A stretch of DNA of 64,000 bases, taken from Natronobeatus ordinarius (GTDB taxonomy: Archaea > Halobacteriota > Halobacteria > Halobacteriales > Natrialbaceae). A model generated the notes under the pieces. The model was not told where the DNA came from. It did no database searches and worked only from the letters and a program-made list of their open reading frames with translations. Where the stretch lies: the NCBI RefSeq assembly GCF_024362485.1, contig NZ_CP101456.1, positions 434,001 to 498,000 on the forward strand. The letters are read 5' to 3'. This document shows, piece by piece, positions 51,913 through 59,223 of this stretch (within the stretch, counting starts at the first letter, position 1; each line of letters starts with the position of its first letter). The translations under genes and the position numbers were made by a program.

Positions 51913-51989
51913 TCACAAAACATTTTCACTGGATTTTATATAATACAGTTGATTGAGGAACCCATAATGAACGACTGCAGCAAATTCTC
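51913..51989 (-). pseudogene. 3' piece of a regulator split by ISH6 and ISH3
   Basis: Minus-strand frame EFAAVVHYGFLNQLYYIKS then SENVL and TGA at 51913-51915. It begins at the ISH6 target duplication AAATTCTC (51982-51989). Joined to 53435-53524 and 54964-55082 after removing one copy of each duplication, it completes a 90-residue winged-helix protein with no frame break. Confidence 0.85.
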
Positions 51990-53434
51990 GGTCGTGTCCC
52001 AAACTCGTCTAGAGTCGTAACTGACTCCTGTGGAAACAGGGTCACCTCTGGTATCCAGCCCGAAGTGACCCATGCACGCCACAATCGACGCGCAAGTCAC
52101 GGTTAGCATCGACTTAGACAAAACGCTACCGCTTGCCACTCTCGCTGAATCTTTCACAGAGCTTCACCTCGAGGCGACGATCCTCGAGGAGCTTGTCAAA
52201 AGCCTCGACGAGCGCCTCGTCGAGGCGTACTGTGGGGAGAAGCACGCGCGCGGAAACGGCGATCGCCGTTTCCAGCGCGCCGGAACCACAACACGAACAG
52301 CTGTGACAACCGCAGGAGAGCACGAATTTTCCCTTCATCACGTCAAAGACACCGCTGCCACCGGTGACGATCCTACCTACTTCCGCCCTCTCGAAGATCT
52401 CATCGAATTCGACGGGCAGCGCATCTATCAAGAGGATATTTCGCTCCAGAGTACCGAACTCGCTACGTCGCTCAGCTTTCGTGATGCCGTCGCCCACGGC
52501 GACGGCTTCACTCCGATGCCTTCGAGAACGACGATCAACCGCCGAGTCCGTGAGTACGGCAGCAAACTCGGTGACTTCGTTCGTGATCGGCTTCCTGGGA
52601 CGAACGCAGACACTGTCGTTCCTGACGGAACGAAGTGTCATAGCCAGCAGGACCACTGCACGCACCACGACGTCAACGTCACCCTCGGACAGATCACCGA
52701 GGGTGACGACACGGAAACCACGCTCTTAGACGTCAATGTGGACGAACCGTGGGCTGAGACAGCAGAAGATCTCAAGGAAAAGGAAGCGGTCACTGACGAC
52801 GCTGCGGTCGTCAGTGACAGCGAAAACTCCCTCGTTGATGCGTTCGAAGCCAGTTATCGATCTCACCAGCTCGATCTTGTTCACGTTGGTCGAACGCTCA
52901 AGTACAAGCTGTGGAAGGACGGTACTTTCCCACTTGAAAAGCGGAAAGAGATCGCCTCAGACGTCACTAACGACCTGTTTCATCTGAAGAACTCAGTTGC
53001 GCTTCACGCACCGAAGAATGAGCGTTTGGCGATCCGCGAGCGGATCGACCAAACGCTCGAAAACCTCACGAAGGAGGCGTGGCGCTTAGAGCAACAGGAC
53101 TCTCCAAAAGCAGCGGCGTACCTCCGAAAATGGGCACAAGCAACCGTGACATTCGCCGAACTCGCGCTCGAGGGACAAGAGATACCGTGGACATCGAACG
53201 TGGTTGAACGAGCCATGGGAGAAATCTCGAAACGGTGTAAAAACCAGTGGATGCGATGGACAGAATCCGGCCTAGAATCGCTCCTCTGGCTTAATCTCGT
53301 GAGATATGCCGATCCTGAGCAGTTCGCGGCGTTCGCCGACGAACTGCTCGAGCGATCAGCCAAAACAGCCATCACAATGGAGGTGTCAGTTGACGCTACC
53401 AGAGGCGAACTCTAGACGAGTTTGTGACGGGACC
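51990..53434 (+). mobile_element. ISH6-family insertion sequence, complete
   Basis: 1445 bp. Terminal inverted repeats of about 26 bp start GGTCGTGTCCCAAACTCG on the left and GGTCCCGTCACAAACTCG on the right, read inward. A perfect 8-bp target duplication AAATTCTC flanks it (51982-51989 and 53435-53442). One transposase gene fills it. Confidence 0.95.
52072..53415 (+). CDS. ISH6-family transposase
   Basis: 447 residues beginning MHATIDAQVTVSIDLDKTLP, identical in style to the haloarchaeal ISH6 transposase. Acidic residues suitable for a DDE triad are present (for example VPDGTKCHS, VVSDSENSLV, TSNVVERAMGEISKR). The frame is intact, so the element may be active. It carries no passenger gene. 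Confidence 0.92.
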   Translation: MHATIDAQVTVSIDLDKTLPLATLAESFTELHLEATILEELVKSLDERLVEAYCGEKHARGNGDRRFQRAGTTTRTAVTTAGEHEFSLHHVKDTAATGDDPTYFRPLEDLIEFDGQRIYQEDISLQSTELATSLSFRDAVAHGDGFTPMPSRTTINRRVREYGSKLGDFVRDRLPGTNADTVVPDGTKCHSQQDHCTHHDVNVTLGQITEGDDTETTLLDVNVDEPWAETAEDLKEKEAVTDDAAVVSDSENSLVDAFEASYRSHQLDLVHVGRTLKYKLWKDGTFPLEKRKEIASDVTNDLFHLKNSVALHAPKNERLAIRERIDQTLENLTKEAWRLEQQDSPKAAAYLRKWAQATVTFAELALEGQEIPWTSNVVERAMGEISKRCKNQWMRWTESGLESLLWLNLVRYADPEQFAAFADELLERSAKTAITMEVSVDATRGEL

Positions 53435-53524
53435 AAATTCTCCTTGTTTCGTCAGCGTATATTTCCCACTTCTTTTTGTGACTAAATTATGTGTTTCGAG
53501 CTGCTTGTGCGCGTTATACACAGT
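53435..53524 (-). pseudogene. Middle piece of the split regulator
   Basis: Thirty codons, TVYNAHKQLETHNLVTKRSG then KYTLTKQGEF, between the ISH6 right duplication and the ISH3 left duplication (ACAGT, 53520-53524). It is the recognition helix and wing of the winged-helix domain; the pieces on both sides continue it in frame. Confidence 0.85.
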
Positions 53525-53598
53525 CGGTACTTCCCGACCGGTGTGAGAGCCGAAGCTAAAGCGTTGCTCTGATTGGGAGAATGTCCGGTTGAGAGAAT

Positions 53599-54771
53599 GT
53601 GTTCACCATACCTCAACCAGACGGTGTTCTTTCGGATTCGGACGTCAAAGACTTAGCGAAAGACGTCATCTGTCAGCTCCCGCTGCCGGGAATCGAGGGC
53701 TCGCCCCTCGATCCCGGCGAGATCTGGGCTGTCGTCATTCTTGCAGCGGTCAACCAGACGTCCATCTGGGAGACGTGCAAGGACAACGACAACGCCCCCT
53801 GTGATGACACTGTCATGGACTGGCTCCATACGCTCAACCGGGAGTGGCTTGAGCGGGTTGCTAACCGCCTTCTCATGCAGTTAGCGATGACGATCCTCGA
53901 CCCTGACCGGTCGAGGATCGTCTCCATCGACTTCGTCGATAACCCCTATCATGGAACGCACGCCGATGAAGAAGGTGAACTCTGTCGCATGCACGCGAAA
54001 GACGGAACAACGACGTGTCACCGGTACTGTACCGCGTATCTCGTCTCGAACGGGAAGCCGGTGACGTTGGCCATGACGTACGTCCGGAGCGATGAGAAGG
54101 AAGCCGACGCGGTCGAGCGCGTTCTCGACCGCGTCGAAGCCTATCCCTTCGAGATAGACCTTCTCTTGGCTGATCGTGGCTTCTACAACGAACGTATCCT
54201 GCGTCGTTCGCGGGAGATTGCTGCGACTGTCGTACCCGTCCAAAAGAAGGGCAAGCGCATGAGGAAGAAGCTGGATACGCACTGCTCGTACATGACGACC
54301 TATCGGATGTACAAAGGCCGCGAGCGGGAATTCCAGTTCCCGCTCGCGGTCGCTGTCTCCTATCACGCCGGAGATCGCGGGAAAAGCGGCGAAGTCGTTC
54401 GAGGCTATGTAGCGTGCGATCTGGCCGATCGCACGCCGAAACAAGTCGAACGACTCTATCGGAAACGGTCAGCGATCGAAACGAGCTACCGTGTATTTCG
54501 CCAAGCACGGGTGGTAACGACGACACAAGACCCAATCATCCGCTTTGCGTTCGTCCTGGTTGGATTCCTGTTGGAGAACCTCTGGCTTGTGCTTCGATGG
54601 GCGGTCGTCGCCCGCCCCCGGCGGGGCGGGCGCGACCTGCCCGAGGAATTCACGTTCAAGACCTTCTCTGACTGGATCAGACACGCATTAGAGGAAGAGC
54701 TAGAGCGGACCTGGGAGATCGAGATGAACGGAACAGGTGTGCCAGAAGCGTACGCATCGGCCGCGGGCTGA
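53599..54771 (+). CDS. ISH3-family transposase
   Basis: 390 residues from a GTG start (FTIPQPDGVLSDSDVKDLAK). DDE candidates are in SIDFVDNPYHGT, LLADRGFYNE and RKRSAIETSYRVFRQ, the last giving the Y/R-x-x-x-E pattern of IS4-like catalytic cores. The frame is intact. A strong hairpin covers its stop codon. Confidence 0.92.
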   Translation: MFTIPQPDGVLSDSDVKDLAKDVICQLPLPGIEGSPLDPGEIWAVVILAAVNQTSIWETCKDNDNAPCDDTVMDWLHTLNREWLERVANRLLMQLAMTILDPDRSRIVSIDFVDNPYHGTHADEEGELCRMHAKDGTTTCHRYCTAYLVSNGKPVTLAMTYVRSDEKEADAVERVLDRVEAYPFEIDLLLADRGFYNERILRRSREIAATVVPVQKKGKRMRKKLDTHCSYMTTYRMYKGREREFQFPLAVAVSYHAGDRGKSGEVVRGYVACDLADRTPKQVERLYRKRSAIETSYRVFRQARVVTTTQDPIIRFAFVLVGFLLENLWLVLRWAVVARPRRGGRDLPEEFTFKTFSDWIRHALEEELERTWEIEMNGTGVPEAYASAAG

Positions 54772-54786
54772 CGCCAGCCCGCGGCC
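54759..54786. terminator. GC-rich hairpin at the end of the ISH3 transposase
   Basis: Perfect 12-bp stem GGCCGCGGGCTG/CAGCCCGCGGCC with a 4-nt loop. It encodes the last residues SAAG and the stop. It may end transcription or hinder readthrough within the element; no T-run follows. Confidence 0.55.
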
Positions 54787-54963
54787 TTGGGCAAGCCTCC
54801 AATGAGCAACAGCATTCGCCTCGAACAGCGTAGCTCAGCTTTCTCACCCCGGACTTCTTCACCCAAGAGCTCTATTTCGTCCTTCGCTCAGCTACCACAC
54901 CAGCGTTTGCCCCAGTTGACCGTAACTCAGCACAACTCACGAAGCGATCGTCGGGAAGTACCG

Positions 54964-55082
54964 ACAGTGCTCTTTGAAACCCCCATCTCTTCTGCCAATT
55001 CTCGCTTATACATTAGATTCTTGTAAAGTAGATGGATCATTTCAGAGTTTTTCACAACAGCTTGAGCCACCTCATACGACAT
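54964..55082 (-). pseudogene. 5' piece of the split regulator
   Basis: From the ATG at 55082: MSYEVAQAVVKNSEMIHLLY, KNLMYKRELAEEMGVSKSTV, which is the first helices and turn of a winged-helix domain. It stops at the ISH3 target duplication. An AT-rich block CATATTATATAGATAT sits directly before the start and may be the old promoter; an in-frame ATG at 55151 is the alternative start. Confidence 0.82.
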
Positions 55083-55153
55083 ATATCTATATAATATGTG
55101 GTTGGATTTAAGTCTTTCTTTTCCACCAACTAATACTTGTCTGTGTGCCATAC

Positions 55154-56555
55154 ATTGGTCTTTAGTTAGGCCTCAGCAGCCGGTTTGATGGCGGTAGCGA
55201 GCTGTTCTTGGAGAACCGGCCGTTGTTTGTGGATCTTCTGCGCGTCGGCGATCAGCCGATCAAGCAGTGGCGGTGGAGAGTACCCGAGGTAGTCACTCAA
55301 CCGGTAGAGAATGAGCTGGGCGTGCGACCAGAAGGTCGCCGCCCAGCGTTCCGGCGGGAACACGAGCTCATCATCTGCGTGTTCGATGACCAGACTGAGC
55401 AACTCACGGCTCACAACCAAGGACAACAGCGCCGCGTACAGCAGAATCTCTACGACGTGCTTCTTCGTCGTATCGAACTCATCCAGCCTGTACTGCGTCT
55501 TCAGCTCCCGAAACAGTAGTTCTACTTCCCACCTACACCAGTAGATCGTCGCTAGATCCTCCGGCAGGAACTCTTCGCGTGAGAGATTCGTGATGTACAG
55601 GTGGTAGTCGTCGGCGTCCTCGTTGCGGACGCCGACGACGCGGAACCGTTTCGTATCGCGTGACTGCGTGCCCGCGTACTCTCTCCGGTCAAACTCGATC
55701 TCAACTTCGACGTCGATGTATTTGCGACAGAGATCGTCCACGACGTCGTAAATTTTCTTCCTTTCCAAGGAAATGGCGCGGCCGCGCCATTCCCGAAGTT
55801 CGTCGGTCACAACCGGGTTAGAGCTGCGTTTCAGTCGACTCACAAAGTAGCCGTCGTTCTCGTCGATCAACGCGAACCGCCGGTACTTGAAATAGGCCAG
55901 ATCAAGGATCGCTAGCCGACCTTCGAGCCACGATCCTGTCTCGAACTGCGTGCTGTCGTGTCTTTTCTCATCTGTGACGCTGAACCGGTCGATCGTCTGC
56001 TCAGTGACGTTGTGGAGCAGGTGGAGCCGTGCTCCAGCCTGCTCATCACGGCGACCTTCGTACTCCTCAGCAAGCAACTCATGGAGCCGGAGAACCGTTC
56101 CATCTGCGATTATCACGTCTCTGAATCGGTTGAACTCCTCTGAGACGGTGTGAGGAACAGCGACCTCGTCGAGCCCGTACTCGACGAGGTCGCAGAGGTA
56201 CTCTGCGAGAGTCGGCGTCAACCGCTGATAGAAGCCTCCTGCGGACAATGTCTTGTCTGCAGTCGAGTTGTAGCTTCGTCTGAAGTTGGCGAGCGTTCGG
56301 CTTGCGCCACCAGCGAAGCCGAACGCAAATGACCAGACGAGCGGTGGAATCTGCAGCTTCCGATCGCGCTCGACCACGCCGACGGCATCGGCGTGGTCTT
56401 CGAGCGCTTCAGATGGAAGGAAGTTAGTGAGATGGCGTTCCACTTCCTGTGAGGAGGGGTTAGACTGCACATCTTCCGCCTCCTCATTCCTTCGAAAAAG
56501 CAACTCCGATAAGCCGACGCTATCGTGCGGTTTTGCGCCTAACTAAAGACGGATG
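55154..56555 (-). mobile_element. ISH8-like (IS4-family) insertion sequence
   Basis: 1402 bp. The ends CATTGGTCTTTAGTTAGGC and CATCCGTCTTTAGTTAGGC (inverted) match with two differences. The flanks do not form a target duplication. The right flank is an ISH6 end and the left flank is regulator upstream DNA, so one side was lost by deletion or recombination after insertion. Confidence 0.88.
55166..56503 (-). CDS. IS4-family (ISH8-group) transposase
   Basis: 445 residues. DDE residues: Asp in VIIADGTVLRL, Asp in LAILDLAYF and the Y-x2-R-x3-E-x6-K signature in YWCRWEVELLFRELKTQYRL. The N-terminal part (NFLPSEALEDHADAVGVVER, RKLQIPPLVWSFAFGFAGG) is typical of ISH8 proteins. The frame is intact. 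Confidence 0.93.
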   Translation of the reverse strand: MLFRRNEEAEDVQSNPSSQEVERHLTNFLPSEALEDHADAVGVVERDRKLQIPPLVWSFAFGFAGGASRTLANFRRSYNSTADKTLSAGGFYQRLTPTLAEYLCDLVEYGLDEVAVPHTVSEEFNRFRDVIIADGTVLRLHELLAEEYEGRRDEQAGARLHLLHNVTEQTIDRFSVTDEKRHDSTQFETGSWLEGRLAILDLAYFKYRRFALIDENDGYFVSRLKRSSNPVVTDELREWRGRAISLERKKIYDVVDDLCRKYIDVEVEIEFDRREYAGTQSRDTKRFRVVGVRNEDADDYHLYITNLSREEFLPEDLATIYWCRWEVELLFRELKTQYRLDEFDTTKKHVVEILLYAALLSLVVSRELLSLVIEHADDELVFPPERWAATFWSHAQLILYRLSDYLGYSPPPLLDRLIADAQKIHKQRPVLQEQLATAIKPAAEA

Positions 56556-56681
56556 AAGTCGATGCTAACCGTGACTTGCGCGTCGATTGTGGCGTGCATG
56601 GGTCACTTCGGGCTGGATACCAGAGGTGACCCTGTTTCCACAGGAGTCAGTTACGACTCTAGACGAGTTTGGGACACGACC
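56556..56681 (-). mobile_element. ISH6 left-end fragment, recent
   Basis: 126 bp that read, on the minus strand, like bases 1-125 of the complete ISH6 at 51990 without visible differences, including the terminal GGTCGTGTCCC and the first codons of the transposase. The element is cut off by the ISH8-like element right after GCATCGACTT. The rest of that ISH6 copy is absent. Confidence 0.9.
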
Positions 56682-56702: not shown

Positions 56703-57053
56703 TCAATCACTCTTGTAATTCATTTGGCTGGTAATGAGATCGAAGAAGGAGCTAACAACTACACTGATAAGGTAGAAATAAACCAGGATCGTAATAAACC
56801 CAATCGCTCCCTGGAAACGTCCTTGGCTAACTAGAGGGGTTGATTCGAGGGGTGGGGCTAAGATGCTAAGTAGAAGGTTTACTGGGTATAGTACTAGTTC
56901 TGTGAGGTTATCCAATACAGATCTGACTGTTGCAAGTCCTCCGTCGGGGAAAAGTAGTATGAACACGAAATACTGAATAGGTAATGCTAGTAGTGCGAGG
57001 AATACTATTACCGTTACTTTGTCTGGGTTGGTAAATCGCTTTTGTATAGTCAT
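56703..57053 (-). CDS. Three-helix membrane protein coupled to the Cys-rich precursor
   Basis: 116 residues from the ATG at 57053. Hydrophobic helices: VTVIVFLALLALPIQYFVFI, LYPVNLLLSILAPPL and IGFITILVYFYLISVVVSSF. It starts 2 bp after the precursor gene stops, so it is made from the same transcript. An immunity, anchoring or export role is a reasonable guess by comparison with peptide-antibiotic loci, but no family is recognised. Low GC. Confidence 0.75.
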   Translation of the reverse strand: MTIQKRFTNPDKVTVIVFLALLALPIQYFVFILLFPDGGLATVRSVLDNLTELVLYPVNLLLSILAPPLESTPLVSQGRFQGAIGFITILVYFYLISVVVSSFFDLITSQMNYKSD

Positions 57054-57055
57054 TC

Positions 57056-57742
57056 TTAGTAACAATCTCCCCAGCAACTAGGATTAGTGTACTGACAGCA
57101 GTTGCATCCGTATGTGTATACAGGTGTACAACTTTCGTTGCAGCAGCTGACACACTCTTCGACACATTCGCAGCATTCATCATCTGTCGGACAGGTTATT
57201 GGGCAGTCGTAACCAATATCTGGAGATGACTCCTCAGGTAGATGTTTTGTGGATTTTTCGATTTCGACTCCACTGTCCGCTTCTTTACTTATCGTGAACC
57301 GTTCTAGTTCGTCTTCTTTTTCGACAGTTCGTGTTGCGAAAGGATCGTCGTCTGAATCTGGGTATAGTACAATGTTGAGTGGGCCGCTAGCCGTTTTTCT
57401 GATCAGATTCAGTTGAGGAACGGTTTCTTCTCCGCTTTTTCTCTTTGTTATGATCTCTCCCTCTCCAAATTCATCTGGTTTAGAGACTGTATCGACGTAT
57501 CGATCGAACTCGTCACACTTTCCATCGATGAACTCGAGAAGTGCGTTAATGAATTCCTCTTCTTCGTCGATCGCATTGTTAAAACTATTGGCTGATTTAT
57601 ACTTTTCGCAAATGTTCTCATCATCCGCCCTAGCAACGCCGCTAAGAGCACTCGCACCCACTGTAGATGTAGTTGCCACTGATTGAAGTACTCTCCTACG
57701 CGACACACCTGGCCTGTTTGTCTGGGTAGGGTTGTTACCCAT
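57056..57742 (-). CDS. Tat-exported Cys-rich precursor, microhalocin (HalC8-like) candidate
   Basis: 228 residues. The Tat signal is SRRRVLQSVATTSTVGASAL, ending near ARADDE. A hydrophilic region of about 130 residues follows. The last 54 residues (175-228), starting DIGYDCPITCPTDDE, hold 14 cysteines (DECCECVEEC, VSCCNESC, GCNCCQ). Halocin C8 has the same order: Tat signal, an immunity part (HalI) and a Cys-rich mature peptide released from the C-terminus. Cysteine number and spacing differ, so it would be a divergent relative. A metal-binding or structural secreted protein is the main alternative. It is leaderless with a strong TATA element, and its GC is low. Confidence 0.72.
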   Translation of the reverse strand: MGNNPTQTNRPGVSRRRVLQSVATTSTVGASALSGVARADDENICEKYKSANSFNNAIDEEEEFINALLEFIDGKCDEFDRYVDTVSKPDEFGEGEIITKRKSGEETVPQLNLIRKTASGPLNIVLYPDSDDDPFATRTVEKEDELERFTISKEADSGVEIEKSTKHLPEESSPDIGYDCPITCPTDDECCECVEECVSCCNESCTPVYTYGCNCCQYTNPSCWGDCY

Positions 57743-57763
57743 ACTTCGAAGTTTATCTATACT

Positions 57764-57777
57764 ATTATATATTTAAC
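57764..57777 (-). promoter_or_regulatory. Promoter core of the Cys-rich cassette
   Basis: On the minus strand GTTAAATATATAAT is centred about 27 nt before the ATG at 57742, the spacing of a haloarchaeal leaderless promoter. It is identical over 14 bases to the promoter of the Tat-exported protein at 50921-51856. Confidence 0.7.
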
Positions 57778-57929
57778 CCACTATTTTATGTGTGGTCTAA
57801 CTCGCAATCTCTCGGTGCAACGTGTTCAAAAACCACACCCCCAAATCGTTCGGATCGCCGCCTCGAACTGAATCACAGTGAGAGACAAAGCGAGTGTGAC
57901 AGACGGTGACGTTTTGTCTGGGTCGAGAC

Positions 57930-58045
57930 TAACTGTGAACTGCGCGTCGATTGTGGCGTGCGTGGGTCACTTCGGGCAAGGTATCAGAGGTAACTCCGTT
58001 TCCACAGGGATTAGTTCCGACTCTAGACGAGTTTGGGATACGACC
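57930..58045 (-). mobile_element. ISH6 left-end fragment, older
   Basis: About 116 bp resembling the ISH6 left end on the minus strand (GGTCGTATCCCAAACTCG...CACGCCACAATCGACGCGCA), with roughly one change in ten. It has nearly the same extent as the 56556 fragment and the same orientation. It ends 14 bp from the radA stop codon. Together the two fragments bracket the Cys-rich cassette. Sequence between 57743 and 57929 holds only the promoter and no gene. Confidence 0.82.
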
Positions 58046-58058
58046 TAGAGTTTTGTCG

Positions 58059-59090
58059 TTACTCGGGTTTCAGCCCCGCGTCCTGGACGCGCATGACGGC
58101 CTCGCCGTCGGCGAGGTTCGGCGCGTCGACGAGGCGGACGATCCGCTTGTCGCCTTTGGATTTGCGGAGGTAGATCCGGAACGTCGACTTGTGGCCCAAG
58201 ATGTTGCCACCGATCGGCTTCGTCGGGTCGCCGAAGAAGGCGTCGGGGTTCGAGGAGACCTGGTTGGTAACGATGATGGCGGCGTTGTAGAGGTTGCCCA
58301 CTTTGTCGATGTCATGGAGGTGTTTGTTGAGCTTCTGCTGGCGGTTCGCGAGTTCGCCACGGCCGACGTACTCCGCGCGGAAGTGGGCGGTGAGCGAGTC
58401 GACACAGAGCAGGCGGACGGGGTACTCCGAGTCTTCGTGCTCGCTCGCGAGCTCTTTCGCCTTTTCGGCGAGCAGCATCTGGTGGTTGGAGTTGAACGCC
58501 TTTGCAACGTGGATCTTCTCGAGCATCGAGTCGACGAGTTCGTCGAGTGTCTCCTCGTCGTCCGGGGAGCCCTCGATCTCGCGGTCTTCGAGAGCGGCCT
58601 CGATCGCTTCCTCGGGAAGCCCGCGGACCATGTCGTCGATCCGCTCGGGCCGGAACGTGTCCTCTGAGTCGACGAAGATGACGCGACCGTGGAGGCCGCC
58701 GGCCTCCTTGGGGAGCTGGACGTTGACGGCCATCTGGTGGGTGACCTGGGACTTGCCGGCACCGAACTCGCCGTAGACTTCGGTGATCGACTGGGTCTCG
58801 ACGCCCCCACCGAGGAGGTCGTCGACCTCGTCGATGTGCCAGGAGAGCTTGCCGATCTCGTTGCGTCGCTCGAGTACCGTCGTGCCGGTCTCGAAGCCAC
58901 CGATGTCGGCCGCGTCACGGGCCGCACGGACGATGTCACCCGCCGTGGAGTCACCGATGTCGGCCGTGTTCGACAGTTCGGCGGGAGCCGCGACGGCCAG
59001 ACTCTCGAAGGAGTCGTAGCCAGCGTCTTTGAGTTTGTCTGCGGTCGCCGGTCCAACGCCGGGGAGGGTTTCGAGGTCTACGTCTGCCAT
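58059..59090 (-). CDS. radA: DNA repair and recombination protein RadA
   Basis: 343 residues from the ATG at 59090 ([20 protein letters not shown]). The N-terminal helix-hairpin-helix domain is followed by the RecA-fold core with Walker [10 protein letters not shown] and Walker B LLCVDSL. It forms filaments on ssDNA and carries out strand exchange. No intein. The 3' end lies next to IS debris, but the C-terminus ([12 protein letters not shown]) is normal. Confidence 0.98.
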
Positions 59091-59223
59091 GCTCTGGCCT
59101 TGCGCCGGATCCCTCATAAACCCTCGTTAACAGGAGAGTGAAAGTGAAAGTGGTGGACGGCGACCGGGTGAGTCGAGCGCCGAGCCACGGGTTTATGCGA
59201 GAAGACGAGTTTCGGGTCCGCGG

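Follow-up and report, generated by a model that had tools for sequence, protein, structure and literature searches.

A family of Tat-exported precursors with diverse cysteine-rich ends in Halobacteriales, with a member in Natronobeatus ordinarius

Haloarchaea, and Halorussus above all, may carry a large and uncatalogued arsenal of Tat-exported, disulfide-rich peptides built on one pro-domain, with dozens of cysteine frameworks and many copies per genome. One precursor of this kind is encoded in the window, by which we mean the whole stretch of 64,000 nucleotides of Natronobeatus ordinarius that was analysed. The wider proposal is put forward tentatively: the peptides would be a new class of archaeocins or else effectors acting between cells, comparable in design to the families of venom peptides and defensins. 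A survey by Makarova et al. (2019) reportedly expanded the halocin C8 family and proposed further candidates, and a prior listing there is possible. The anatomy taken by itself, that of a secreted and disulfide-rich precursor, is very probable.

Characterisation at sequence level exists for few archaeal antimicrobials. The family described here occurs in about 15% of the sampled Halobacteriales genomes and is labelled 'hypothetical' where an annotation was seen, thus providing dozens of candidates. It makes testable whether archaea deploy disulfide-rich peptides against each other, and raises the question of how proteins fold with as many as 11 disulfides, and pass through the Tat system, at high salt.

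The precursor gene and its surroundings

The features of the locus are collected in Table 1. The precursor frame reads as the first-pass annotation had described it: a Tat signal, a middle part and a cysteine-rich C-terminus with 14 cysteines. The middle part measures about 135 amino acids. The Tat motif SRRRVLQ occupies residues 14-20, two cysteines (45 and 76) belong to the middle part, and the remaining 14 fall within residues 180-227. The TATA-like stretch lies immediately 5' of the start codon. Neither the precursor nor the membrane protein matched a Pfam, NCBIfam, PHROG or PADLOC family, and a structure prediction of the precursor alone, made without a usable alignment, reached a pLDDT of 38.

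The gene of the membrane protein does start 2 bp past the precursor stop: its best start is the ATG at 57053, and the ORF 56703-57077 extends this frame to an upstream TTG. The AT-richness claimed for the locus is also confirmed, with a G+C content of 43-47% in the region of the two genes versus 61-70% just outside. The pair adjoins a radA-like gene (58059-59117, identified by reading its translation), and the window comes from a 4.08-Mb contig in a genome of 4.21 Mb; the pair thus lies on the chromosome, not on a small replicon.

Table 1. Features of the precursor locus, in positions of the window
Feature	Position	Strand	Basis and remarks
Second Tat-exported protein, "Tat-B", ~311 aa	50921..51856	(-)	E 7.4e-70 to G031 and Natrialba hulunbeirensis pair; alignment A7
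Insertion sequence (IS), transposase 52072-53415	51975..53436	(+)	Terminal repeats
Regulator gene, 3' part (VYNAHKQLETHNLVTKRSGKYTLTKQGEFG), runs into next IS	53430..53518	(-)	Remainder of the cut gene
IS, transposase 53599-54771, inside regulator gene	53519..54969	(+)	20-nt terminal inverted repeats, 95%; one at 54950-54969
Winged-helix regulator gene, 5' part, cut by IS	54970..55151	(-)	43% over 40 aa to G031 HTH
IS, transposase 55166-56503, between regulator and membrane gene	55153..56555	(-)	19-nt terminal repeats
124-bp IS-end remnant 3' of precursor/membrane pair	56558..56681	.	Direct repeat D1
Small membrane protein, 116 aa, hydrophobic helices	56703..57053	(-)	Homologues in G031, G082, G042, G109
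Tat-exported Cys-rich precursor, 228 aa	57056..57742	(-)	Stop within coordinates; ORF and homologues
C-terminal putative disulfide-rich domain, residues 175-228, 14 Cys	57059..57220	(-)	Start of any released peptide putative
Pro-domain, residues ~41-174	57221..57622	(-)	Kept across precursor family (alignments A1, A2)
Tat signal region, residues 1-40 (SRRRVLQ...ARA)	57623..57742	(-)	Sequence; exact cleavage site predicted
TATA-like box 5' of precursor (ttaaatatataa)	57760..57775	(-)	Read in sequence
124-bp IS-end remnant 5' of pair, 85% to other remnant	57922..58045	.	Direct repeat D1

The cluster in the window consists of four genes on one strand, for the precursor, the membrane protein, the regulator and Tat-B, separated by three insertion sequences. 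The regulator and Tat-B, like the wide precursor family described below, had escaped the first-pass annotation. These elements had been reported around the precursor, and they are real, having both terminal repeats and transposases. Their interpretation as the mark of a mobile bacteriocin locus found no support: one of them splits the regulator gene and a second cuts its 3' end, so that the elements, which break up the cluster, look like decay rather than cargo mobility. Nor did the precursor gene show relatives on plasmids or viruses. Plasmid searches returned no relatives of the window precursor, of the membrane protein or of two other family members, while a third family member matched two Halorussus replicons; viral contigs gave none. 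The two replicons, one from Halorussus aquaticus and one from Halorussus limi, have a member annotated as 'hypothetical protein'.

It could be conjectured that the cluster of Natronobeatus ordinarius is decaying and no longer working, which would be compatible with every other reading given below. The split and truncated regulator, together with the several elements between the cluster genes, points in this direction. However, the frames of the precursor, the membrane protein and Tat-B are intact, and the C-terminal framework is kept with respect to the homologue in genome G031 (69% identity): we consider such decay rather unlikely.

A common pro-domain and many cysteine-rich ends

A search with the precursor sequence alone over 125 genomes of the taxonomic family yielded homologues in G031 (35% identity, E 7.5e-40) and in G045, which is Natrialba hulunbeirensis JCM 10989 (36%, E 2.2e-28), followed by a weak third match with a different cysteine-rich end. 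The window precursor and the homologues in G031 and G045 have in common the framework CPxDxxCCEC-CV-CC-SCT-V-Y-C-C-PxCWxDCY. Since two other genomes hold homologues with this framework, the gene is beyond chance.

Searching 392 genomes of the order with a profile of four rows brought in the wide precursor family. With a profile of 25 rows, the family is found in 58 of the 392 Halobacteriales genomes at E<=1e-9. When 295 genomes were sampled across the phylum, matches at E<=1e-9 came only from Halobacteriales, to which the family is confined within the genomes sampled. Tat signals alone reach at most about 19-30 bits, hence only stronger full-length matches were counted. The copy counts are lower bounds, several genomes having at least seven copies each. 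The window precursor combines the Tat signal, the pro-domain and the even-cysteine end of a family member, and matches the family profile A2, which was built with it included, at E 7.1e-42.

The spread of the family is patchy, and tandem copies are present. Its 54 different full-length members have a Tat signal region, a pro-domain of about 112-169 residues and a cysteine-rich end whose median length is 50 residues. Signal and pro-domain are shared; the ends differ, with 45 distinct cysteine spacings in the 54 members, and they are hydrophilic and enriched in Trp, Tyr, Gly and Asn. The genes mostly stand alone: the loci of the family have no processing gene in common, and no dedicated immunity gene was found at them.

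Some loci are worth recording for themselves. Three different family precursors stand in tandem in G299 (L085 5266-7499). At L079, L080, L081, L097 and L099, the precursor or its site adjoins secDF in related genomes, with different cysteine-rich ends at the same site; at L086, L093, L095 and L105, the precursor is near tatC in two distant genera, perhaps by chance or synteny. The tatC and secDF neighbours may be due to synteny and were left out of the evidence. Members with 6 cysteines at L098, L103 and L104, in Halorussus-type genomes, occupy a conserved neighbourhood beside thiC, with shared neighbours.

The number of cysteines after the signal, which ranges from 6 to 22, is even in all 54 members, and in every one of the 36 clusters that they form at 40% identity. 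Neighbouring genes with at least 6 cysteines, taken as a control, split into 11 even and 11 odd. In the window protein, the two cysteines of the middle part keep the total even, at 16, and the same holds in G031. On this parity, the cysteines of the family are almost certainly paired in disulfides, and are not metal-binding or redox residues. Dense cysteines and CC and CxC motifs might suggest a metal-binding or electron-carrying protein, akin to metallothioneins or ferredoxins. However, an even count in 54 of 54 members over the whole range fits disulfides and not metal sites, the protein is exported, and no such family was matched by it, which makes this reading highly improbable.

The cysteine-rich end usually changes less than the pro-domain between the members of a close pair. 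Where dN/dS is measurable for both domains of such a pair, it is lower for the end than for the pro-domain, examples being 0.08 versus 0.19, 0.06 versus 0.16, and 0.07 versus 0.48. Three pairs show the reverse trend in identity: L025/L026, L041/L063 and the tandem pair at L102. A comparison of the window gene with G031 gives 69% identity for the end and 26% for the pro-domain. This contrast suggests that the cysteine-rich end is probably the active part, the one that matters.

Neighbouring genes and the possible role of the peptide

The membrane protein had been proposed as a dedicated partner of the precursor. A single-sequence search of 125 genomes of the taxonomic family gave one other match, in G031, beside the precursor homologue: there, Tat-B and a winged-helix regulator (HVO_A0261-like) adjoin the membrane gene, and regulator and membrane gene are oriented divergently to the precursor. 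Natrialba hulunbeirensis has Tat-B beside its precursor (44% identity). On the other hand, no member of the trio of Tat-B, membrane protein and regulator is near about 40 other precursor loci, and in G082 the trio occurs without a precursor alongside. The partnership thus gives way to a different picture: judged from these neighbourhoods, the membrane protein is part of a separate module, formed with Tat-B and the regulator. Among the 11 genomes that match Tat-B best, four (G000, G031, G045 and G047) have a precursor of the family beside it, a co-occurrence that is hardly chance, but the link is loose. Tat-B itself has invariant His and Asp residues, and many haloarchaeal proteins share its C-terminal part, which has no Pfam match. 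A structure prediction of the Tat-B pair, without a usable alignment, gave a pLDDT of 29.

The account that we favour is the following. A preproprotein would be exported via the Tat pathway. The last 50 residues or so would form a small disulfide-crosslinked domain, with seven bridges in the window protein, carried by a faster-changing pro-domain. An extracellular protease would probably free the C-terminal peptide, as in halocins C8 and H4; until release, the pro-domain would hold it folded and harmless. The free peptide would most likely be an antagonist of neighbouring haloarchaea. We rate the release of such an antagonistic peptide just short of probable, on the grounds of its design, copy number, framework diversity and patchy spread and of the analogy with halocins, to which can be added that the genes mostly stand alone without a dedicated immunity gene, as for halocin C8. 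The strongest points against it are the hydrophilic ends, the lack of immunity genes and the conserved positions of some members: those at L098, L103 and L104 have conserved chromosomal positions and are under purifying selection, unlike fast-evolving toxins.

The low dN/dS of the ends, and the presence of some members at conserved positions, would also suit a signal or recognition molecule exchanged between cells of the same kind, like a pheromone, whose variable frameworks give specificity. In the subfamily of the window, the regulator, membrane protein and Tat-B would then be the sensing side, in agreement with the divergent regulator and membrane gene of G031 and with the four genomes in which precursor and Tat-B occur together. 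However, the trio is also found without an adjoining precursor, in G082, and most family members are without a receptor-like neighbour, so that we hold a signalling role to be distinctly unlikely. The cysteine-rich end might also never be released: the whole protein would be a stable envelope or secreted protein, in which the disulfide module serves adhesion, protease inhibition or stability. This has a modest chance at best: hydrophilic, disulfide-rich ends with much Trp, Tyr, Gly and Asn resemble binding modules, and the loci share no processing gene, but the diversity of frameworks and the number of copies seem greater than a structural role would require.

Comparison with halocins and other known systems

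A peptide freed to act on neighbours calls for comparison with halocin C8, whose precursor arrangement had been recognised in the window gene. We searched with the mature peptide of halocin C8 (HalC8), its sequence confirmed by a 100% match in genome G051. Matches were found in 13 of the 125 genomes, the window's genome not among them, and 16 HalC8-type precursors were retrieved for comparison; the mature peptide has 10 cysteines in 15 of them. ProC8 leaves the cell through the Tat system and is cleaved into HalI and a peptide of 76 aa, a single gene serving production and immunity (PMC11509114).

Of the supposed arrangement, the layout of Tat signal, pro-region and cysteine-rich end stands and the kinship does not. 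When the pro-domains of the family and of HalC8 were compared as profiles, with the Tat signal removed, the hhalign score was 18.5 against 18.2 for the reversed-profile control: there is thus no detectable kinship between them. For the mature ends, the profile comparison gave P 0.8 and the ends do not align, which agrees with the earlier remark that the cysteine pattern is unlike that of halocin C8; the profile check therefore detects homology neither in the pro-domain nor in the end. Matches of profile A2 to HalC8 precursors, at E 1e-5 to 1e-8, were rejected as a sign of kinship: they rest largely on the Tat signal and are gone once it is removed. The GRAVY computed without cysteines is -1.26 for the window end and -1.17 for the family ends, versus a median of +0.60 for the HalC8 type. 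True membership of the halocin C8 family, the peptide having diverged, would explain the same layout, the Tat export and the ten cysteines of most HalC8-type peptides, but with pro-domains scoring no better than the control, ends unaligned and hydropathy opposite, it is very improbable indeed.

The resemblance to halocin C8 is, as far as sequences tell, one of layout only. The window family is likewise Tat-exported, with a pro-region, an even-cysteine C-terminal end and mostly stand-alone genes, but its ends are hydrophilic and acidic where HalC8 is hydrophobic, and its frameworks vary, with 6-22 cysteines instead of 10. According to a review, every halocin described so far is hydrophobic (PMC11509114). 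Nearer to HalC8 in character is a Tat precursor of G311 (L042 1477-2355) with a hydrophobic 10-cysteine end (CFIGCVLAQGASIGRICYN...), a genome beyond the taxonomic family that the HalC8 search covered. Several Natrialbaceae (G024, G025, G026 and G065) have two or three diverged HalC8-type precursors per genome, at L122-L138.

In halocins H4 and C8 an active C-terminal fragment is freed from the precursor, other haloarchaeal precursors are activated by secreted proteases, and HapP (HFX_0892) frees an N-terminal helical part (PMC12893001). The likeness of the window family to Halocin H4/HlyR4 activation and to HapP, one of description only, lies in the secreted precursor, which there is activated by an extracellular protease; the word cysteine is absent from the main text of that article (PMC12893001).

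Searches of protein families and of the PDB gave no homology to a known toxin or antimicrobial; the PDB matches, conotoxin-like Pmag-02 and nasonin-1 among them, are weak and not significant. The design is nevertheless that of the secreted conotoxins, defensins and knottins of eukaryotes, in which a common precursor ends in a small disulfide-rich unit whose framework shifts. Apart from the lack of homology, the difference lies in what is conserved: in conotoxins the pro-region is better conserved than the end, whereas between close relatives of the window family the end is usually the better conserved of the two.
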